Positions 42,922 to 53,539 of a DNA stretch of 64,000 nt are shown here, piece after piece. The notes under the pieces were generated by a model. That model was not told where the DNA came from. It did not search any database and was given only the letters and a program-made list of their open reading frames with translations. The first letter of the stretch is position 1. Every line of letters starts with the position of its first letter. The stretch is from Caulobacteraceae bacterium (GTDB lineage: Bacteria; Pseudomonadota; Alphaproteobacteria; Caulobacterales; Aquidulcibacteraceae): the NCBI GenBank assembly GCA_009773335.1, contig WRPF01000008.1, forward strand, positions 1-64,000, written 5' to 3'. Both the position numbers and the translations under genes were made by a program.

Positions 42922-43781
42922 GCGCGGATGCGATCAAGGATTTCGCGCTGCAGGTCTTCGGGCAAGCCGTCGCTGATGGCCTCGCCGAGAAACGCTTCCA
43001 CAAGGAGCGCGCGCGCCTCGCTTTCAGGGACGCCGCGCTGCCGGATGTAGAAGAGCGCTTCAGCGTCCAGGCCGCCAACGGTGTTGCCATGCGCGCACTG
43101 CACGTCGTCAGCATGGATTTCGAGCTCGGGCTTCGCGAACACCTCAGCGCCATCCTCAAGCAGAAGTGCGTGATGGTTCTGCCGAGCATCGGTCTTCTGG
43201 GCGTACGGCGCGACCAATATCCTGCCCTGGAACACGCCGCGCCCGCCCGCCCGCGCCACACCTTTCACGAGTTGGCGGGTGACGCCGCCGGCGCACGCGT
43301 GGTGAATTGTGCTCGTCAGATCGGCATGCAGTCCGCGACCGACCATGTAGACGCCGTTCAGTTCGACCGTCGCGCCCTCGCCCTCTACGGAGACATGGGT
43401 CTCGATACGCGCGAGCCGTGCGCCTTCGGCGAGAACGAACTGCCTGTATGTTGCGCCCGCCGCAAGCCGTACGCGAACGGTCGACAACGGGACGCCGCCG
43501 GATCGCGCCTGGATGACGATCCGTGTCAACATGGCGCCCTGGCCGACGTCTGCAGAGAACGCCCTGGCGTCCAGAGCAGCATCTCCATAGCGATCAATCT
43601 CGGTCGCCTGCGCTCCCGGCGGGACGGTCATCGACTTAGCGCCGCCCGAAAGCCCCTCGATTATGTCGACGCCTTCGCGTACGGTCGGCAGGACAACATT
43701 GCTCAGGGCAGCCGAAAGATCGGAGTATTTCCAGGCCTCGACGCGCCGCGTCGGCAGAACGGTGGCGGACGACATCTTCAA
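42900..43781 (-). CDS. sufD: Fe-S cluster assembly protein SufD
   Basis: RVEAWKYSDLSAALSN, VARAGGRGVFQGRILVAPYAQKTDARQNHHALLLEDGAEVFAKPELEIHADDVQCAHGNTVGGLDAEALFYIRQRG. Confidence 0.94.
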   Translation of the reverse strand: MKMSSATVLPTRRVEAWKYSDLSAALSNVVLPTVREGVDIIEGLSGGAKSMTVPPGAQATEIDRYGDAALDARAFSADVGQGAMLTRIVIQARSGGVPLSTVRVRLAAGATYRQFVLAEGARLARIETHVSVEGEGATVELNGVYMVGRGLHADLTSTIHHACAGGVTRQLVKGVARAGGRGVFQGRILVAPYAQKTDARQNHHALLLEDGAEVFAKPELEIHADDVQCAHGNTVGGLDAEALFYIRQRGVPESEARALLVEAFLGEAISDGLPEDLQREILDRIRAWLGATS

Positions 43782-44524
43782 GCCGCGGCGAGGTACTTGT
43801 CGTACCCCTCCTTTTCCAGCCTGAGAGCGAGTTCCGGACCGCCGGTATCAACGATGCGTCCGCTCACGAGGACGTGCACCTTGTCGGGGCGAATGTAGTC
43901 GAGCAGGCGTTGATAGTGGGTGATGACCAGCATTGCGCGATCCGGCGCGCGCAGTGCATTGACGCCGTCCGCCACGATGCGCAAGGCATCGATATCCAGA
44001 CCGGAGTCGGTTTCGTCGAGGATCGCGAAGCGCGGCTCCAGCACCATCATCTGCAGAATTTCCATGCGTTTCTTCTCGCCGCCGGAGAAACCGACGTTGA
44101 GCGGGCGCTTGAGCATTTCCGCGCTGATGCGCAATTCGCCGGCCCGCGCGCGCACGCGCTTCAGGATTTCCGTGGCGCCCAGTTCCGGTTCACCGCGCGC
44201 CTTGGCCTGCGCATTGAGCGCCGCCTTCAGGAACGTCATCGTGGGCACGCCCGGAATCTCGAGCGGATACTGGAAAGACAGGAAAAGGCCGGCGGCGGCG
44301 CGTTCCTCCGGCGTCATCGCCAGGAGGTCCCTGCCTTCGAGCGTGACGGCGCCTTGCGTCGCCTCGTATCCCTCCCGCCCCGTCAGGGCGTAGGACAGCG
44401 TGGACTTGCCGGCTCCGTTCGGGCCCATGATCGCATGGACCTCGCCGGCCGGCACACTCAGCGTCAGGCCCTTGAGAATCTCGGCGGCTCCGACGGATAC
44501 GTGAAGATCAGATACGGACAGCAC
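43778..44524 (-). CDS. sufC: Fe-S cluster assembly ATPase SufC
   Basis: IMGPNGAGKSTLSYALTG, GFSGGEKKRMEILQM, AILDETDSGLDIDALRIVADGVN. Confidence 0.96.
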   Translation of the reverse strand: MLSVSDLHVSVGAAEILKGLTLSVPAGEVHAIMGPNGAGKSTLSYALTGREGYEATQGAVTLEGRDLLAMTPEERAAAGLFLSFQYPLEIPGVPTMTFLKAALNAQAKARGEPELGATEILKRVRARAGELRISAEMLKRPLNVGFSGGEKKRMEILQMMVLEPRFAILDETDSGLDIDALRIVADGVNALRAPDRAMLVITHYQRLLDYIRPDKVHVLVSGRIVDTGGPELALRLEKEGYDKYLAAA

Positions 44525-46008
44525 TAGCCCACGCTCCCCTCAAGGCTCACTGCGACGAGTTTCTGCGCTTCCACCGCGAACTCCATCGGCAACTGCTGCA
44601 GGACCTCCCGCACGAAGCCATTCACCAGAAGCGCCACCGCTTCCTCTTCCGGTATTCCGCGCTGGCGCATGTAGAAGAGCTGGTCCTCCGACAGCTTCGT
44701 CGTCGTCGCCTCGTGTTCCAGCTTGGCGCTCACATTGCGCGCCTCGACGTAAGGGATGGTGTGGGCCCCACACTTGTCGCCGATGAGCAGCGAATCGCAC
44801 TGGGTGAAGTTGCGCGCGTTGGCGGCCTTGCCATGGATCGAGACGAGCCCGCGATAGGTGTTCTGCGCGCGCCCGGCGGAAATGCCCTTCGAGATGATCC
44901 GGGACTTCGTGTTGCGCCCGAGGTGAATCATCTTGGAACCGGTATCGGCTTGCTGGCGACCATTGGTGATGGCGATGGAATAGAACTCGCCGCTGGAGTC
45001 GTCGCCGCGCAGGATGCAACTGGGGTATTTCCAGGTAATCGCGGAGCCCGTCTCCACTTGCGTCCAGGAAATCCTGGAGCGCGCGCCGCGGCAGTCCCCG
45101 CGCTTGGTGACGAAATTGTAGACGCCGCCTTTGCCGTCAACGTCTCCGGGCCACCAGTTCTGGACGGTCGAATACTTGATCTCGGCGTCTTCGAGCGCCA
45201 CGAGTTCCACCACGGCCGCATGCAGCTGGTTCTCTTCACGCATCGGCGCGGTGCAGCCTTCAAGGTAGGAAACATGGCCTCCCTTGTCGACGATGATGAG
45301 CGTGCGTTCGAATTGGCCGGAACCCTGAGCGTTCATCCGGAAGTAGGTCGACAACTCCATGGGACAACGCACACCCTGCGGCACGTAGACAAAGGAGCCA
45401 TCGGAGAACACCGCGCTGTTGAGCGTCGCGAAGAAATTGTCTGTCGTCGGCACCACCGAGCCCAGATACTTTTTCACGAGATCCGGGTGCTCACGCACCG
45501 CTTCGGAAATCGAGCAGAAAATCACGCCCGCCTGCGCCAGCTCCTTCTTGAACGTCGTCAGGACCGAGACGCTATCGAACACCGCATCCACCGCAATGCG
45601 CGGCGCGCCCGCAACCCCCAGCAGCGTTTCCTGCTCGCGGAGCGGAATGCCGAGCTTCTTGTAGGTCTCAAGGATTTCCGGGTCGACCTCATCGAGACTC
45701 TTGTACTTGGCGGCGTTCTTTGGCGCGGCGTAGTAGGTCGCGTCCTGATAGTCGATCGGCGGATAGCGGACCATTGCCCACGAAGGCTCTTCCATGGTTT
45801 GCCAGCGGCGAAACGCCTCAAGTCGCCAGTCCAGCATCCATTGCGGCTCGTCCTTCTTGGCCGAAATGAAGCGCACGGTGTCTTCGCTCAGGCCCTTCGG
45901 AGCAAATTCCTGTTCGATGTCGGTCGTGAAGCCGGCCGTGTACTTGCCCGCTTCCAGCGCCCTCACGGCGTCGACCGTGGAGAGATCGATCCCTTCCCTG
46001 GCCATCAC
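44524..46008 (-). CDS. sufB: Fe-S cluster assembly protein SufB
   Basis: [90 protein letters not shown]. Confidence 0.96.
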
Positions 46009-47132
46009 ACGCTCTCCTGAAGCGCGCCGAACCGCGCGCGAACCTTTGTGAGGGCCGCAAGCAGTCGCTCCACATCATGTTCGCTCGATGCCCAGCCAAA
46101 GCTCGCGCGCAAAGCGCATCTAGCCGTCGCCGACTCCACGCCCATCGCCAGGAGCACCCGGCTCGACTTCACCTTGCCTGACGAGCAGGCTGAACCGGAA
46201 CTGAGCGCGACGCCTTCGAGATCAAGGGCGATGAGCGCCAGCTCCGCGGGCGTGCCCGGGAGTGCGAAAAGCGATGTATTTGGCAGACGCGGCGCCTCCG
46301 CACCGAAAATGACCACGTCCGCATGGTCCCGCCGCAGCCGCTTCTCGAAAAGCTCGCGCAGCTGTTGCACCCGCGAGGTTTCGATGGTCGCGGCAGCTTC
46401 CATGGCTGCACCGAAGCCCGCAAGCGCAGGGACGTTCTCTGTCCCCGGCCGGCGTCCCTGTTCCTGCCCCCCGCCACGACGCGTGATGGCGAACGGCGCC
46501 CCTGGAGCAAGGACCAGGGCGCCTGCGCCGGGCGGCCCGCCGGTCTTGTGGCTCGACATCACCAGATAGGAGGCGTCCAGAACGCCGATATCTACCGGGA
46601 TGCGCCCAACCGCCTGCGAGGCGTCGACCAGCAACAACCCGCCAGCCTCACGCACGCGCGCCGCCACCTGCGCGACCGGCTGCACGACGCCGGTTTCATT
46701 GTTGGCGAGCATGACCGCCACAAGTGGGTGACTTGCCGCCGCCAGGAGATCGCCGAGATGCCCGAGATCGACGAGGCCGTCCCCGTCGACACGCAGCGGC
46801 GACATCTCGTCCATCGTAGCGGTCGCTTCCCACAGGGCATCGTGTTCGATCTCGGAAATGATGAGATCGTCATATGTATCGCGCGCCGCCTCGAGCGCGA
46901 GTTGGAGCGCCTCGGTCGCTCCGCCGGTGAAAATCACGTCGCGCGCCCGTGCGCCGACGCCTTTCGCGACAGCCTCGCGTGCATTCTCCAGAAGCGCCTT
47001 GGCCGCGCGGCCGGCCGCATGCACAGACGACGGGTTGCCGCCGATCGCGAGCGCACGCGTGACCGCCTCCGCGGCTTCAGGGCGGACCGGCGTTGTGGCG
47101 TTGTAGTCGCAGTAGGCGATGTCGGCGTTCAT
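46005..47132 (-). CDS. cysteine desulfurase (NifS/IscS-type, class I)
   Basis: [89 protein letters not shown]. Confidence 0.94.
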
Positions 47133-47148: not shown

Positions 47149-47613
47149 TCATTCGGCCGGCGTCAGGCAAGCGAGTCCCGGCGCCCCGGCGCGACCGCGC
47201 ACCCGACTGGTGATGACGTCTTCAAGCGTCACGGCGTCGAGGAACACATGAATTTGCCGACCGAGTTCGTCCCACAGATCGTGTGCGATGCACCGGCCGA
47301 CCTTGCCCTGGCAACTCTTGAGCGAACCGTCCCGGCAGCGCGTCGTCTTGATCGGCTCATCGACCGCCGCGATCACCTCGGAGATCGCAATTTCGGCCGC
47401 CCGGCGCGCAAGCTTATAGCCTCCGCCCGGCCCTCTGACGCCCCCGACCAGCCCCGCCCGCCGCAGTCGCGCGAAGAGCTGCTCCAGATAGGACAGCGAG
47501 ATTTCCTGACGCTCGGAAATTTCCTGGAGCGGCACGGCGCGCTCCGCCCCGCCATTGGCGGCGAGGTCGGCGAGCGCCATGACCGCATAGCGGCCCTTGG
47601 ATGTCAGTCTCAT
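47149..47613 (-). CDS. iscR: Rrf2-family regulator, IscR/SufR-like
   Basis: MRLTSKGRYAVMALADLAANGG...QEISERQEISLSYLEQLFARLRRAGLVGGVRGPGGGYKLARRAAEIAISEVIAAVDE; C-x7-C-x6-C cluster ligands (TRCRDGSLKSCQGKVGRC). Start ATG 47613. Confidence 0.93.
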   Translation of the reverse strand: MRLTSKGRYAVMALADLAANGGAERAVPLQEISERQEISLSYLEQLFARLRRAGLVGGVRGPGGGYKLARRAAEIAISEVIAAVDEPIKTTRCRDGSLKSCQGKVGRCIAHDLWDELGRQIHVFLDAVTLEDVITSRVRGRAGAPGLACLTPAE

Positions 47614-47715
47614 GTGACGGGTCCTGATCTTGCCCGTCCGGCGGCCTGCCGTGCGGGAAAACCTCGCTTCGCGCGGGGGCATTGTGTTAAGGCACGCGCT
47701 TTCACGATCAGACCC

Positions 47716-47754
47716 TGAGGTAGGATGTCCTACTAAAAAGGTCAACAATTCCCC
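47716..47754 (-). promoter_or_regulatory. candidate iscR/suf operon promoter with palindromic operator
   Basis: Minus strand TTGACC-17 nt-TACCTC with a GTAGGA-CA-TCCTAC palindrome (47720-47733) in the spacer and -10 region, upstream of iscR. Confidence 0.45.
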
Positions 47755-47805
47755 CGGGGAAATACCGCGCCGCGCGGTCCCGTGGCGCAGAGAGGTTCCA
47801 AGGGC

Positions 47806-48489
47806 ATGCCTGAAGTGATTTTCGCCGGACCCGCCGGTCGTGTTGAAGGCCGATACGCGGAGCCCAAGCGCGAGAACGCGCCGATCGCCCTCATTCTCCA
47901 CGCCCACCCCCGGGCGGGCGGTTCGATGCAGGATCGGGTCACGGTCCAGCTCTACCAGATATTCACGCGGTTCGGCTTCGCCACGCTGCGGTTCAACTTC
48001 CGCGGCATTGGACGCAGCCAGGGCGTGTTCGACAACGGCATGGGCGAACTGTCGGACGCGGCGCAGGCGCTCGACTACCTGCAGAGCATGAATCCGAACG
48101 CCGAACAGTGCTGGGTCGCGGGCTACTCCTTCGGCGCATGGATCGGGCTCCAGCTCCTCATGCGGCGGCCTGAGATTGACGGTTTCATCGCCATCTCGCC
48201 GCCAGCGAACCACTACGATCTGTCCTTCCTCGCGCCGTGCCCGGCGTCGGGCCTCATCGTGTACGGCACCAAGGACGGCGTATCGCCCGCCTCCGATGTC
48301 GAGCGCGTGGTGTCGAAGATCCGCACGCAGAAGAACATCAAGGTCGATCACCAGTCCGTGGAAGGCGCCGACCACTTCTATCGCAACCCGGCAGACAAAT
48401 CCGTCGATTATCTCGCGGAAGTTGAAGCCAAGGTGAGCGCCTACCTCGAACGCCGGCTGGCGCCGGATGCGATCAAGCGACAGGGGTAG
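47806..48489 (+). CDS. alpha/beta hydrolase
   Basis: ILHAHPRAGGSMQDRVTVQLYQIF, FNFRGIGRSQGVFD, WVAGYSFGAWIGLQLL (GxSxG), late catalytic His in GADHFY. Confidence 0.9.
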   Translation: MPEVIFAGPAGRVEGRYAEPKRENAPIALILHAHPRAGGSMQDRVTVQLYQIFTRFGFATLRFNFRGIGRSQGVFDNGMGELSDAAQALDYLQSMNPNAEQCWVAGYSFGAWIGLQLLMRRPEIDGFIAISPPANHYDLSFLAPCPASGLIVYGTKDGVSPASDVERVVSKIRTQKNIKVDHQSVEGADHFYRNPADKSVDYLAEVEAKVSAYLERRLAPDAIKRQG

Positions 48490-48495
48490 GAACGG

Positions 48496-49758
48496 CTAGG
48501 CCGACACCGGAAATGTCGGCCAGACGCCTGTGATGTTTTCGCCGTCGAACAGCGCAATATCGCCGAATTGCAAGAAAATCGCTTCGCTCTGCGTGGGGCG
48601 AAGGAAAACGTAGTCGTCCGGCTGCAGATCGATCGCATCCGATCCTGTGAGCAGTTCCTGATTGCTCGAGCGCCCGAACAGCGCGCTGTACTCCAGCCCC
48701 GGCGGCGACTCTGGCTTTGCCAGCCAGTGACCGCCATGAATGAAGAACGCCCGTTTCGTGTTCGGATCAAAGAAGGCGAAAATGCCCGACGCGGATTCGA
48801 TCGTGGGGATTTCCGTCCGCGCGAGCGCCTTGATGACCGGCGTCGCGATGAAGGCGGCCGCCGTGTGGTGGACCAGCGTCTTGAGATCGAAATCGGCCGG
48901 CTTCACGAAAGCCGATCCGATCGCGACCTCGTTCGCGGCCGTGCCCTTCGCGTGCAGCGCGTAGGTCGGACTTCCGGCCGAGTTCAACGTGAGCGATGCG
49001 GGATCAACCTTCAGTCGTTCGATGAGCACCGCCTTGGCCGCCTCGTAGGCCTTCTGCACGGAGGCATAAGCGCGTTCGGGATTCGCCGCCTTGGGCACGT
49101 GCGGGTCGTAGCCCATAAGGCCCGTCACCGTGACGCCGGCGTCGCGCGCAAAGTCCAACGCGCGCGCCAGCTCTTCGAGATCGACAAACCCGCCTCTATG
49201 CAGGCCGACGTCGATCTCGAAATTGGCCCTCAACGCTACGCCACGCGATTTCGCCAGCTCCGCGTACTGTGCAAGGCGCGCCGGCGTATCGATGAGCCAC
49301 TGTGGCGACACCGGGCCGATTGTTTCAAGCACGTGCGCAGCTTCTGCAACCGGCAACGGCTTGCCGAGCAGGAGATCGGCGCCCTGTTTCGCGCGGACCA
49401 GCTCCGTCAGCATCGGCCCGTTGAAGACCATGTAACGATTGGTTCCCACACCGTTCGCCACCGCGTCCAGAAGGTCGTGCGCCGGCAGCGATTTCACAAC
49501 GATGCGCGTCGCGAGCCCCGTCCCTGCCAAAGTCTCCTTCACCGCCCTGATATTCGCATCGAGCCGCACGCGATCGACAACCAGCGTCGGCCTGGAATGG
49601 CCAGCGGCATGCAGTGCGAGCGAGAGCTTCTGGAAATACGCACTGTGCGGACCGCCGCGATCGGATTTCCGTGCCGCCATGACGCCTCCTCCTGCCAACA
49701 CCAGCGCGCCGCCGCCCCACATCGCTGCACGCCGGGTCCAGCCTCGCGCTTCAACCAT
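48496..49758 (-). CDS. alanine racemase N-terminal-fold PLP protein (DSD1 / D-threonine aldolase-like), predicted Tat-exported
   Basis: ATRIVVKSLPAHDLL (PLP Lys region), ANFEIDVGLHRGGF, VTGLMGYDPHVPKA, TLNSAGSPTYALH; N-terminal RRAAMWGGGALVLAGGGVMAA. Confidence 0.8.
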   Translation of the reverse strand: MVEARGWTRRAAMWGGGALVLAGGGVMAARKSDRGGPHSAYFQKLSLALHAAGHSRPTLVVDRVRLDANIRAVKETLAGTGLATRIVVKSLPAHDLLDAVANGVGTNRYMVFNGPMLTELVRAKQGADLLLGKPLPVAEAAHVLETIGPVSPQWLIDTPARLAQYAELAKSRGVALRANFEIDVGLHRGGFVDLEELARALDFARDAGVTVTGLMGYDPHVPKAANPERAYASVQKAYEAAKAVLIERLKVDPASLTLNSAGSPTYALHAKGTAANEVAIGSAFVKPADFDLKTLVHHTAAAFIATPVIKALARTEIPTIESASGIFAFFDPNTKRAFFIHGGHWLAKPESPPGLEYSALFGRSSNQELLTGSDAIDLQPDDYVFLRPTQSEAIFLQFGDIALFDGENITGVWPTFPVSA

Positions 49759-51154
49759 CTTGGAACACCGCGCGCAGGTGATCGTTCAGCATTCGCCCAT
49801 CCGGGTCCAGCATGTCGCGCACGGCGACAGCATCCTTGAACCGCGGATACAGGGACACGAAATCGGCATGCTTGAGCGAATGGAGTTTACCCCAGTGCGG
49901 TCGCCCGCCGTGCTTGCGCAGGATTGGCTCAACAAGATCGAAGAAAAAGCGGTAGTCGTCCTTGTAGTAGGCGTGGACCGCTATGGAGCCCGAGACGCGC
50001 TCATGAAATGGCGAAAGCCACGCATCGTCCGCGTCGATCACGCGCGCCTCGATCGGAAAGAAGACATCTGACCGATGTTTCTCGATCGCAGCAATCACAT
50101 CGCGCAACGCCGCCATCTGCGTCTCAAGCGGCAGATGATACTCCATTTCGTTGAAACGCACCGGCCGTTCGTTCGACAGGAGCTTCCACCCCTCATCAAC
50201 GGCTTCGTCGGGCGGCGCATCCTTGAACGCCGCTTGCGCAAGGCTGCGGCGTACGCCCGGCAGGAAGCCCGCAACATCGCGCAGCTTCTTCAGTTCCATC
50301 ACCGCATCGACATCGGTGTCCGGCCCGCGGGGCGAGACCGGCTTGTCCGTTTCATCGACGGTGATCAGCGCCGCGAGCCCCGTGAACGGGATCGCGTAGA
50401 ACTCGACGTTGCGGTGTTGCGCAATCAGGCTGGGCCACTCCTCGATGACCTCATCGAGCTGGCGGCCGACAGTGCGTTTCAACACCCGCTTCAACGGCCG
50501 GTTCTGAAGGGTGATTTCGCTGATGACGCCGAACGCGCCGAGATTGACTCGGGCCGCATGGAACACGTCTGCATTCGTCGTGCGATCGCAGGCGAGCACG
50601 TCGCCCCGGGGGGTCGCAATACGAAACGCCGTGACATCGCCATGGATCGCCTTGAAGGCGCGCCCTGTACCGTGCGTGCCGGTTCCCAGAGCGCCGCCGA
50701 GCGACTGCTTGTTGATGTCCGGCAGATTCGGCATTTCCTGGCCGATCGCGGCAAGCGCGGGCCCCAGATCTCCAAGGCGCGTTCCTGCGCGCACCGTCGC
50801 CTGTTGCGTGGCCGCGTCGTGGCTCACCAACCCGCTCATGCGGTCAAGCGTGAGCAACGTGCCGCCGGTCGGCACAAGTGCGGTGAAGGAATGCCCAGCT
50901 CCGACCGGACGGATCGGTCCTGGCGAGGACTTCAGGATGCCAGCGAGCGCTTCTTCGCCATCCGGCGCGGCGCGTTCCTTCGGATAGGCGTTCTGGATCC
51001 CGGACCAGTTGCGCCAGAGCAGTCGCCCCTGGTCGTCCTGCGAGGGCGGCGAGGCGGGCTCCCTGTCACGCCAGACTCGATAGCCTGCCGCGCCGCCCGT
51101 AGCGGCGATGCCGGCGCCTACACCTCCCACGACAACAGCGCGTCTCGAAACCAT
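49751..51154 (-). CDS. FAD-binding sugar-lactone oxidase (D-arabinono-1,4-lactone oxidase family), predicted Tat-exported
   Basis: IRPVGAGHSFTALVPTGGTLLTLDRMSGL (VAO-type FAD domain), LGGALGTGTHGTG, C-terminal GGRPHWGKLHS; N-terminal MVSRRAVVVGGVGAGIAATGGAAGY. Confidence 0.88.
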   Translation of the reverse strand: MVSRRAVVVGGVGAGIAATGGAAGYRVWRDREPASPPSQDDQGRLLWRNWSGIQNAYPKERAAPDGEEALAGILKSSPGPIRPVGAGHSFTALVPTGGTLLTLDRMSGLVSHDAATQQATVRAGTRLGDLGPALAAIGQEMPNLPDINKQSLGGALGTGTHGTGRAFKAIHGDVTAFRIATPRGDVLACDRTTNADVFHAARVNLGAFGVISEITLQNRPLKRVLKRTVGRQLDEVIEEWPSLIAQHRNVEFYAIPFTGLAALITVDETDKPVSPRGPDTDVDAVMELKKLRDVAGFLPGVRRSLAQAAFKDAPPDEAVDEGWKLLSNERPVRFNEMEYHLPLETQMAALRDVIAAIEKHRSDVFFPIEARVIDADDAWLSPFHERVSGSIAVHAYYKDDYRFFFDLVEPILRKHGGRPHWGKLHSLKHADFVSLYPRFKDAVAVRDMLDPDGRMLNDHLRAVFQDG

Positions 51155-51165
51155 GTTGGCTTACC

Positions 51166-51519
51166 TCAGTTCTCGTGATCGGCCATGAAGCGGATCAGCG
51201 CCTCGTAGTCCTGCGGCGTGCAGGAAAAACACTGCCCGCCCGCCGGCATGCCGTTGAGACCGCCCACAGTGCTCGAAAGCAACGCAGGCATGCCCTTCTT
51301 CCAGCGCGGCTCCCACGACGCCCGGTCCCCCGCCAGCGGCGCGCCGGTATCCACCACCGTGTGGCACGTCCGGCAGGATTGGGCATAGAGGTCGGAGAGC
51401 CGCGGACCGGCCGGGACGAGGGTGAGCGCGTACGCCGCAGCTTCGGCCGGCGAGCGCTTTGGCGCAGCCGGAGCGCATGCGGCGAGCATCAGCGCGACCG
51501 CCAGAACAATCCACTTCAT
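51166..51519 (-). CDS. cytochrome c5-like lipoprotein
   Basis: Lipobox-type MKWIVLAVALMLAACAPA, haem motif SCRTCHTV (CxxCH), GMPAGGQCFSCTPQDYEALIRFM distal region as in c5-type cytochromes. Confidence 0.87.
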   Translation of the reverse strand: MKWIVLAVALMLAACAPAAPKRSPAEAAAYALTLVPAGPRLSDLYAQSCRTCHTVVDTGAPLAGDRASWEPRWKKGMPALLSSTVGGLNGMPAGGQCFSCTPQDYEALIRFMADHEN

Positions 51520-51573
51520 TCCGTCCTCCCTCCTGCCAGTGTGCGAAAGGACGGGCGGCTTGGCTAGTCCCGC

Positions 51574-52266
51574 CTAACGAGGGCGCGCGTGCTCCACGAG
51601 GTGGCCGTCCTTCAGCGTCACCACACGGTCCATGTACGAAGCCAGTTCAAGATTGTGGGTCGCGATGAGCGCGCCCACGCCTTCGCGCCGCGCGACATCG
51701 AACAGACTCTGGAAAACCGCGCCCGAGGTCGTCGGGTCAAGGTTGCCGGTCGGTTCGTCTGCGAGAAGCAGCCGCGGGCGGTTTGCCAGCGCACGTGCGA
51801 TCGCCACGCGCTGCTGTTCGCCGCCGGACAGCTGAGCCGGTTGATGATGCAGACGCGCGCCGAGTCCCATGAGGGTCAGAAGCCTCTCAGCCTCCACACG
51901 CGCATCGCGACGCCTGCGTCCCGCAATGAGTTGTGGCAGCGCCACGTTGTCGAGTGCGTCGAATTCCGCGAGCAGATGGTGGAACTGGTAGACAAAACCG
52001 ATATAGCGCCGCCGCAACGCCGTTCGCGCGTCATCGCCGAGCGCCCACGCATCGACGCCGTCGATCAGAACCGTTCCGCCCGTCGGACGTTCGAGCAGGC
52101 CGGCGGCGTGCAACAGCGACGACTTGCCGGATCCTGACGGCCCGACAAGGCCCACCATTTCACCCGGCTGCACGTCGAGATCGACGCCCGACAGGATCAC
52201 GAGTTCGCCATCGCCCGATGCAAAGCGCCGTTCGAGACCACGAATAGAGAGCGCCGGCTCACTCAT
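51574..52266 (-). CDS. lolD: lipoprotein-releasing ABC transporter ATP-binding protein
   Basis: GLVGPSGSGKSSLLHAAGLLERPTGG, QLSGGEQQRVAIARALANRPRLLLADEPTGNLDP. Confidence 0.93.
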   Translation of the reverse strand: MSEPALSIRGLERRFASGDGELVILSGVDLDVQPGEMVGLVGPSGSGKSSLLHAAGLLERPTGGTVLIDGVDAWALGDDARTALRRRYIGFVYQFHHLLAEFDALDNVALPQLIAGRRRRDARVEAERLLTLMGLGARLHHQPAQLSGGEQQRVAIARALANRPRLLLADEPTGNLDPTTSGAVFQSLFDVARREGVGALIATHNLELASYMDRVVTLKDGHLVEHARPR

Positions 52267-53539
52267 AGCGAAGCGCCTCCACGGGATCGAGACGCGAGGC
52301 GCGCCAGGCCGGCGGCAGCGTCGCGAGGAACGACATGAGCAACGCCCAGACGGTCACGATGCCAACTTCCCCCCAGTCGAGTTTCGCGGGCAGGCGCGAA
52401 AGGGAATAGACTTCCGGATTGAAGATCTGTGTGCGCGTCACGAACTCGATCGCGGCCTGGATTGCGCTGATGTTCAGGCACATGAGCGTGCCCAGCACGA
52501 GCCCCGCGATTGTGCCGAGCACGCCGATGGATGCCCCGGACAGGAAGAAGATGCGCAGGATCGCGCCGCGCGTGGCCCCCATCGTGCGCAGGATCGCGAT
52601 GTCGCGCCCCTTGTTCTTCACCAGCATCACGAGACCGGTGATGATGTTCATCGCCGTGATGGCCACCAGGATCATCAGCACGATGCGCATCATGTTTCGC
52701 TCGACGATAAGCGCCGTGACGAGGCTCTGGTGCATGTCCTTCCAGTCGGTGATGATCACGTCGGGCGGGAGGCTGGCGCGCAGGGCCTGCTTCACCGGCA
52801 GCGGATCGGTCGGATCATCGATACGGACTTCCAGCCGGTCCACGCTGTCACCGCGCCCGAAAAAGAGCTGCGCCTGATCGAGCGGCATGAAAACCAGTGT
52901 CGCATCGAACTCGGCGGCGCCGACGGTGAACAGGCCGGCGACGGTGAAGCTCTTGCGTCGCGGCACCATGCCGAACGGCGTCGCGGACCCGTTGGGCGAA
53001 AGAAGCGTGACGGTATCGCCCTCGAAAGCGCCAAGTTGCGCCGCCAGCCGCGACCCGAGAAGCACCTTGGGATCTTCCTGGTCGTCGAACGCGTCGAGTG
53101 AGCTTCCGGGCGCCATCTGCCGGGACACGATGGTCAGCGACTTGAGATCGGTCTCGCGGATACCGCGGACATAAACGCCAGATGCGCCGCCTTCCACGCT
53201 GGCCAGCGCCTGCCCGTCGATCATCGGCGCCACATGATTGACGCCCGGCGTCGCTCTCGTCCGCTCAATCGCCGTATCGACTTCGTTGGGTGATCGCCCC
53301 CGCACGTCGACATAGACATGCCCGCTGACGCCGAGAATGCGCGACAGCAGCGTTTCGCGGAAACCGTTCATGATCGACATGACGACAATGAGCGCGGTCA
53401 CGGCCAGCATGATGCCGGCGAACGAAATGATCGAGATGAGGGCGACCCCCCCCTGCTGGCGTTTCGCGCGCAGATAGCGCGACGCGAGCGATCTCTCGAA
53501 GGCCCCAAAGGGCGGCGCAGACGTCGGTTCGCTCAACAC
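52259..53539 (-). CDS. lolC: lipoprotein-releasing ABC transporter permease (LolC/LolE)
   Basis: FERSLASRYLRAKRQQGGVALISIISFAGIMLAVTALIVVMSIMNGFRETLLSRILGVSGHVYV; C-terminal FtsX-like permease. Confidence 0.93.
   Translation of the reverse strand: MLSEPTSAPPFGAFERSLASRYLRAKRQQGGVALISIISFAGIMLAVTALIVVMSIMNGFRETLLSRILGVSGHVYVDVRGRSPNEVDTAIERTRATPGVNHVAPMIDGQALASVEGGASGVYVRGIRETDLKSLTIVSRQMAPGSSLDAFDDQEDPKVLLGSRLAAQLGAFEGDTVTLLSPNGSATPFGMVPRRKSFTVAGLFTVGAAEFDATLVFMPLDQAQLFFGRGDSVDRLEVRIDDPTDPLPVKQALRASLPPDVIITDWKDMHQSLVTALIVERNMMRIVLMILVAITAMNIITGLVMLVKNKGRDIAILRTMGATRGAILRIFFLSGASIGVLGTIAGLVLGTLMCLNISAIQAAIEFVTRTQIFNPEVYSLSRLPAKLDWGEVGIVTVWALLMSFLATLPPAWRASRLDPVEALRYE

Follow-up and report, generated by a model that had tools for sequence, protein, structure and literature searches.

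A sphBCD-like operon in a Caulobacteraceae bacterium and its probable role in the periplasmic oxidation of sphingoid bases

A stretch of 64,000 nucleotides from a Caulobacteraceae bacterium (assembly GCA_009773335.1, contig WRPF01000008.1, positions 1 to 64,000; hereafter the window) contains a three-gene operon for a cytochrome, a flavin adenine dinucleotide (FAD) enzyme and a pyridoxal phosphate (PLP) protein, which is very likely a homologue of sphBCD of Pseudomonas. The operon probably encodes an alphaproteobacterial sphBCD-type periplasmic pathway that oxidises, and would presumably break up, sphingoid bases from outside the cell or close long-chain 2-amino-1,3-diols. An earlier note, made from the window sequence, had put the trio forward as a candidate for an undescribed system; this was not borne out, as the trio corresponds to the Pseudomonas sphBCD cassette described in 2014, 2016 and 2025, and no further description of it beyond sphBCD was found in the literature searched. 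What is new is the wide set of alphaproteobacterial operons in which SphD is retained and exported, and the finding that compartment, cytochrome and flavin-site residue switch together.

The operon, its relatives and its counterpart in Pseudomonas

Features of the operon, as deduced from open reading frames (ORFs) and profile searches:
51166..51519, minus strand: SphB-like c5-type mono-haem cytochrome lipoprotein, 117 aa (ORF; PF13442, 43 bits)
51155..51165, minus strand: gap of 11 nt between the cytochrome and FAD genes (ORF coordinates)
49751..51154, minus strand: SphC-like FAD enzyme with Tat-type export signal, 467 aa (ORF; TIGR01679, 542.7 bits)
49751..49758, minus strand: overlap of 8 nt between the FAD and PLP genes (ORF coordinates)
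48496..49758, minus strand: SphD-like fold-III PLP protein with Tat-type export signal, 420 aa (ORF; PF01168)

The three genes are tightly packed on one strand in the order cytochrome, FAD, PLP, and their positions, strand, overlap and spacing agree with those given in the earlier note. Its family calls were likewise recovered by profile search, with PF13442 for the cytochrome, PF04030, PF01565 and TIGR01679 for the FAD protein and PF01168 for the PLP protein (53 bits against a cut-off of 24), and the N-termini read as it described them (WTRRAAMW..., VSRRAVVV... and a lipobox LAAC with Cys15); the haem motif of the cytochrome is CRTCH. Export by the twin-arginine translocation (Tat) system was judged from a twin arginine and a hydrophobic stretch in the N-terminus; both the FAD protein (MVSRRAVVVGG) and the PLP protein (MVEARGWTRRAAMWGGG) have a hydrophobic stretch after the arginine pair. 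The cytochrome begins with MKWIVLAVALMLAAC, which contains the lipobox, and ends in a GMPAGGQCFSC tail that we take to be typical of cytochrome c5. By these motifs the FAD protein is of Tat type and the cytochrome a lipoprotein, as for SphC and SphB. The FAD protein also lies well within the bacterial FAD-linked oxidoreductases of TIGR01679 (cut-off 292.25 bits).

In P. aeruginosa, PA5328, PA5327 and PA5326 encode a cbb3-III-type cytochrome, a D-arabinono-lactone-oxidase homologue and an alanine-racemase-N-terminal homologue, and are induced 45-, 31- and 18-fold, respectively, by sphingomyelin (PMC5150637). Sphingosine is an inducer of the operon as well. The regulator SphR binds the sphBCD promoter with sphingosine, and sphA faces the operon in convergent orientation (PMC3900636). 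SphC is secreted by Tat, and SphB is a lipoprotein of c5-like type; cells require both sphB and sphC to grow with sphingosine, sphinganine and phytosphingosine and to deplete them, and complementation of the operon deletion requires the two genes together (PMC11893366).

None of the sampled genomes was recognised as P. aeruginosa (argB synteny was not found in one Pseudomonadaceae genus), and a counterpart was therefore chosen by layout. Two Pseudomonadaceae-like loci, L092 and L161, carry a cytochrome-FAD-PLP operon, after which come a PF13557 porin gene in convergent orientation and one for an AraC regulator (PF12625/HTH_18); this is the published arrangement of sphBCD, sphA and sphR, and the two loci were thus taken as the sphBCD counterpart. 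Against the Pseudomonadaceae-like trio loci the window proteins are 43-45% (PLP), 37-42% (FAD) and 37-49% (cytochrome) identical. The window operon shares with P. aeruginosa sphBCD the three families, their order, the c5-like lipoprotein, the Tat-exported FAD enzyme and the aldolase-like PLP protein encoded third. It differs in having no adjacent SphR or SphA, in lying downstream of lolCD, and in a proline at the oxygen-gatekeeper position of the FAD enzyme where the Pseudomonadaceae have alanine or serine; other alphaproteobacterial copies have TetR genes and TonB-dependent receptors as neighbours.

Relatives were scanned with one genome per species, and the genes in their loci were located by similarity searches; greedy longest-ORF calling mapped the GC-rich loci poorly. 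This yielded 52 further loci from Caulobacterales, Sphingomonadales (with sphingolipid-making sphingomonads among the carriers), Kordiimonadales and unplaced proteobacteria, with the order cytochrome-FAD-PLP in essentially all of them where the contig was long enough. Identities to the window were 54-78% for the PLP protein, mostly 54-83% for the FAD protein and 49-71% for the cytochrome. Among close relatives of the window genome the gene is patchy (9/61). Within the window's order, two Caulobacteraceae-like genomes (G050 and G346) have the cytochrome and FAD genes, 50-56% identical to the window pair, and no PLP gene. They resemble C. crescentus, which is reported to carry only sphBC (PMC11893366) and so shares the cytochrome and FAD pair with the window and lacks the PLP gene.

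Co-occurrence was counted in 398 genomes spread evenly across the phylum (E<=1e-40 for the PLP gene, E<=1e-60 for the FAD gene). The PLP gene was present in 26, the FAD gene in 33 and both in 23, where 2.2 would be expected, and the two genes were within 160 nt of each other in 22 of these 23 genomes and 1239 nt apart in the remaining one. Kinship among the genomes inflates the significance of the co-occurrence, and the adjacency is independent of it. Taken with the recurrent gene order, these figures show that the trio is more than a chance grouping, and a set of unrelated neighbours was rejected on the same counts; rare co-occurrence, which the earlier note had named as an objection to its own proposal, was not what we found.

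The genes beside the operon vary between lineages. An AraC regulator is found in most Pseudomonadaceae-like loci; 13 alphaproteobacterial and seven Rhizobiales-like loci have a TetR gene, which in most cases is divergent. TonB-dependent receptors lie near the operon in seven alphaproteobacterial loci (upstream in L016, L026 and L063; downstream in L021, L027, L032 and L033) and may carry the substrate across the outer membrane, a task for which Pseudomonas has the SphA porin.

The PLP protein and the proposed pathway

The AlphaFold model of the PLP protein is confident (pLDDT 89), with the fold-III two-domain architecture and PLP lysine of the D-threonine aldolase/DSD1 family. Its best match in Foldseek was a D-threonine aldolase (4v15), and the best 21 matches comprised D-threonine aldolase, beta-hydroxyaspartate aldolase, D-threo-3-hydroxyaspartate dehydratase and D-serine dehydratase, with the racemases after them; alanine racemase was rejected as an identity because it ranks below this aldolase group. 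The periplasmic broad-spectrum racemase BsrV is a weaker structural match, and offers a precedent for a fold-III PLP enzyme in the periplasm. To our knowledge BsrV has no operon linkage to a FAD enzyme.

The resemblance to D-threonine aldolase, the beta-hydroxyaspartate aldolase BhcC and DSD1-type D-serine dehydratase extends to the two-domain fold and the PLP lysine, and ends at the metal site. The profile search gave no match to the PF14031 metal domain, and in a profile alignment with 22 PF14031 proteins the His-x-Cys/Asp metal pair corresponds to Gln390-Ser391-Glu392 and the EHG histidine to a leucine. We therefore did not assign the protein, which is also exported, to the metal-dependent D-threonine aldolases or DSD1 enzymes, since only the fold is alike. 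In a residue survey the PLP lysine, Lys89, was kept in 81/81 copies, Gln390 in 74/74 scored FAD-linked copies and His187 in 73/75, and both Gln390 and His187 were lost in all six PLP copies that lack a FAD gene, copies that group in a single clade. Gln390 and His187 thus track the FAD partner, which makes them the strongest candidates for chemistry on the FAD enzyme's product. The full signature of His187, Gln390, Ser391 and Glu392 is kept across the exported Pseudomonas and alphaproteobacterial copies.

The six paralogues (L099:7197-9538, L100, L103, L172, L173 and L174) have a Tat-like signal and no FAD partner nearby. In L099 the gene overlaps one of the nitronate-monooxygenase family.

We propose that the SphC-like and SphD-like proteins would be folded with FAD and PLP, respectively, before export by Tat, and that SphB would serve as a membrane-anchored c5-type cytochrome. 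SphC would oxidise the C1 alcohol of sphingosine, sphinganine or a close long-chain 2-amino-1,3-diol, and would hand the electrons to SphB, and through it to the respiratory chain, in preference to oxygen, because Pro145 is expected to block the flavin site where oxidases have glycine. After oxidation at C1 the 2S amino alcohol would have become a 2-amino-3-hydroxy aldehyde or acid of 2R (D) configuration, and SphD, a member of the D-threonine-aldolase fold group without the metal site, might then cleave it by a retro-aldol reaction to glycine (or aminoacetaldehyde) and a fatty aldehyde. Sphingosine is 2S,3R, and oxidation of C1 alters the priorities at C2, so that the aldehyde or acid would have the 2R,3R configuration of D-allo-threonine, which suits a fold of the D-threonine-aldolase type. 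We infer the site of oxidation and the products; a sphingoid-base-like substrate is probable for the window organism, and the retro-aldol step is offered more tentatively. The D-configured amino- or hydroxyamino-type substrate of the earlier note fits both this fold and the role of the homologues in sphingoid-base removal. The order of steps that it implied, with the PLP step before the oxidation, is probably reversed, in keeping with the oxidation-first, PLP-second scheme proposed by LaBauve and Wargo in 2014 (PMC3900636).

Several observations weigh against this pathway. The classical D-threonine aldolases require the metal ligands that are absent from the PLP protein. In the FAD tree the window and Pseudomonas FAD proteins fall in different clades, and with no SphR-like or SphA-like gene beside it (nor any adjoining regulator or receptor gene among the window ORFs) the operon was not assigned to the SphR regulon, which is characterised by an AraC-type SphR and a SphA porin as neighbours. 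The host genome gave no match to PF13557 (SphA-type) or PF04734 (ceramidase), in searches whose controls were silent too, so that absence is not shown. Proline is the commonest gatekeeper in the exported enzymes, and the cited passages of the gatekeeper study (PMC11099136) contain no test of its effect that we could find. In C. crescentus a sphC mutant had only a small effect on sphingosine, and C. crescentus sphBC gave no significant complementation of P. aeruginosa, the authors considering the orthology uncertain; PAO1 grows with sphingosine even when sphD is missing, and the product was not identified (PMC11893366). The dispensability of sphD fits the proposed pathway if oxidation alone detoxifies and SphD handles the product.

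The alternative that survives best, although we consider it unlikely, is that the substrate of the exported trio is a different amino alcohol or hydroxyamino compound of D configuration, derived for instance from the cell wall or from peptides, and that the handling of sphingosine by Pseudomonas represents one specialisation. Identity between the homologues is only about 40-45%, TetR-type genes stand in place of AraC/SphR in the 13 alphaproteobacterial loci and a TonB-dependent receptor in place of a SphA-like porin beside some operons, and the weak C. crescentus phenotype would be expected. The host (a 4.0 Mb assembly in 285 contigs) likewise shows no sign of serine palmitoyltransferase in a motif check of its six strongest PF00155 matches; the sole alpha-oxoamine synthase motif among them looks like 5-aminolevulinate synthase, and a sphingolipid-making host is thus unsupported. 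If the substrate is a sphingoid base, this slightly favours an outside source over the host's own lipids. Set against the alternative are the residues His187, Gln390, Ser391 and Glu392, whose retention in the exported Pseudomonas and alphaproteobacterial copies argues for a shared chemistry, and the presence of sphingolipid-making sphingomonads among the carriers. Sphingoid-base oxidation remains our preferred reading.

Compartment and electron acceptor

The fold of the FAD protein is closest to L-galactono-1,4-lactone dehydrogenase (GalDH) and alditol oxidase of the VAO family, with which it shares the FAD domain and a choice between cytochrome c and oxygen at one residue. It differs from them in its low identity (~22-27%), its gene partners and its Tat-type export. 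Alignment to both enzymes places Pro145 at Ala113 of GalDH, the oxygen gatekeeper position. According to the cited passages of PMC11099136, Ala113 bars oxygen so that cytochrome c stays the acceptor, and among aldonolactone enzymes this position divides the cytochrome c dehydrogenases (Ala) from the oxygen-using oxidases (Gly). With its non-Gly residue the window enzyme would sort with the VAO-type cytochrome c dehydrogenases, an assignment in which Pro is presumed to act as a blocking residue.

Export signals were scored in 77 loci with both FAD and PLP genes and complete N-termini. In 58 of them both proteins had signals and a cytochrome gene was present, in 13 neither protein had a signal and there was no cytochrome, and in three both signals occurred with no cytochrome adjacent; the remaining three (L022, L034 and L168) were mixed, L168 having the arginine pair in both proteins and failing only the hydrophobic threshold. 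Thus signals were on both proteins or on neither in 74/77 loci, and a cytochrome gene was found only where there was export. The gatekeeper followed the same division: of the 58 exported loci with a cytochrome, 45 have Pro, nine Ala and four Ser at this position, and all 13 cytoplasmic loci have Gly. It was also Gly in four FAD-only loci without a cytochrome, and Pro in two cytochrome-FAD pairs without a PLP gene.

On the FAD tree, export state and gatekeeper need three changes each, which coincide; this leaves two to three independent pairs, too few for significance by a sign test. On the PLP tree, which is better supported, export state must change four times. Branches with support require three of these changes, among them one within family f2 (100/99) and another within the Pseudomonadaceae-like clade (99/97). 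We read this as repeated joint switching of compartment by the oxidase together with the PLP partner and the electron acceptor, the number of switches being small.

The cytoplasmic pairs with a Gly gatekeeper are L096, L101, L102, L104, L105, L106, L107, L109, L110, L111, L112, L170 and L171; several of the Rhizobiales-like ones have an MFS transporter and a TetR gene. Four loci (L097, L098, L168 and L169) have exported FAD/PLP pairs with a non-Gly gatekeeper and no adjacent cytochrome gene, and the cytochrome may be encoded elsewhere.

It is likely, and rather more so than any particular substrate, that the unit works as a FAD dehydrogenase donating to the cytochrome. The joint change of signals, cytochrome and gatekeeper across relatives supports the earlier note's proposals of a single functional unit, of predicted Tat-type export of both cofactor proteins and of electron flow from FAD to the cytochrome. 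A broader interpretation, on which we are evenly divided, is that the FAD/PLP pair is one module that has moved repeatedly between compartments, its FAD enzyme acting when exported as a cytochrome c dehydrogenase paired with a c5 lipoprotein of its own and when cytoplasmic (in Rhizobiales-like and other lineages) as an oxygen-using oxidase with a Gly gatekeeper and no cytochrome, and that Gln390 and His187 of the PLP protein form a new metal-free catalytic site specific to the FAD enzyme's product.

That the exported FAD enzyme is itself an oxygen-using oxidase, the cytochrome being merely a genomic neighbour, seems improbable. His88, the covalent-FAD position, is invariant (84/84 in the gatekeeper survey), and covalent FAD goes with oxidase activity in eukaryotic relatives, as stated in the cited part of PMC11099136; the four exported loci without an adjacent cytochrome would also agree. 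Yet no exported enzyme has a Gly gatekeeper, that residue being confined to cytoplasmic enzymes that lack a cytochrome, and in Pseudomonas sphB is needed together with sphC to complement the operon deletion (PMC11893366). Least probable, if narrowly, is a sugar-lactone or alditol dehydrogenase with a PLP protein of unrelated periplasmic role such as amino-acid racemisation, which would suit the TIGR01679/PF04030 and fold matches to GalDH and alditol oxidase and the fold shared with periplasmic broad-spectrum racemases (BsrV appeared in the fold search), but which conflicts with the near-complete co-occurrence and adjacency of the two genes, the joint switching of their export signals, the tracking of the FAD gene by His187 and Gln390, the ranking of alanine racemase and BsrV below the aldolase group, and the published sphingosine phenotypes (PMC11893366).

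In Pseudomonas, sphBCD serves the removal of the antimicrobial lipid sphingosine, and the operons described here bear on how bacteria destroy such bases. In the alphaproteobacterial set sphD is almost always retained, exported and co-varying with sphC, which argues that SphD belongs to the pathway. Its chemistry can be approached through Pro145 of SphC, through His187, Gln390 and Glu392 of SphD and through the naturally cytoplasmic homologues. Sphingomonad sphingolipids are common in soils and fresh water, and the pathway may therefore shape interactions between bacteria as well as those with hosts.

Surroundings of the operon in the window

A scan for promoters and terminators found nothing. 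The operon begins 54 nt downstream of lolCD, which encodes a lipoprotein release system (window 51519-53539, minus strand), on the same strand, and the arrangement is likewise present in the sister genome (L013). The operon could be transcribed together with lolCD, which would be unusual for catabolic genes under regulation. An iron-sulfur assembly cluster of the SUF type (sufC, sufB and a cysteine-desulfurase-like gene) occupies 43778-47132 on the minus strand, and an ORF further along the strand from it, at 47149-48375, contains Rrf2-like sequence.

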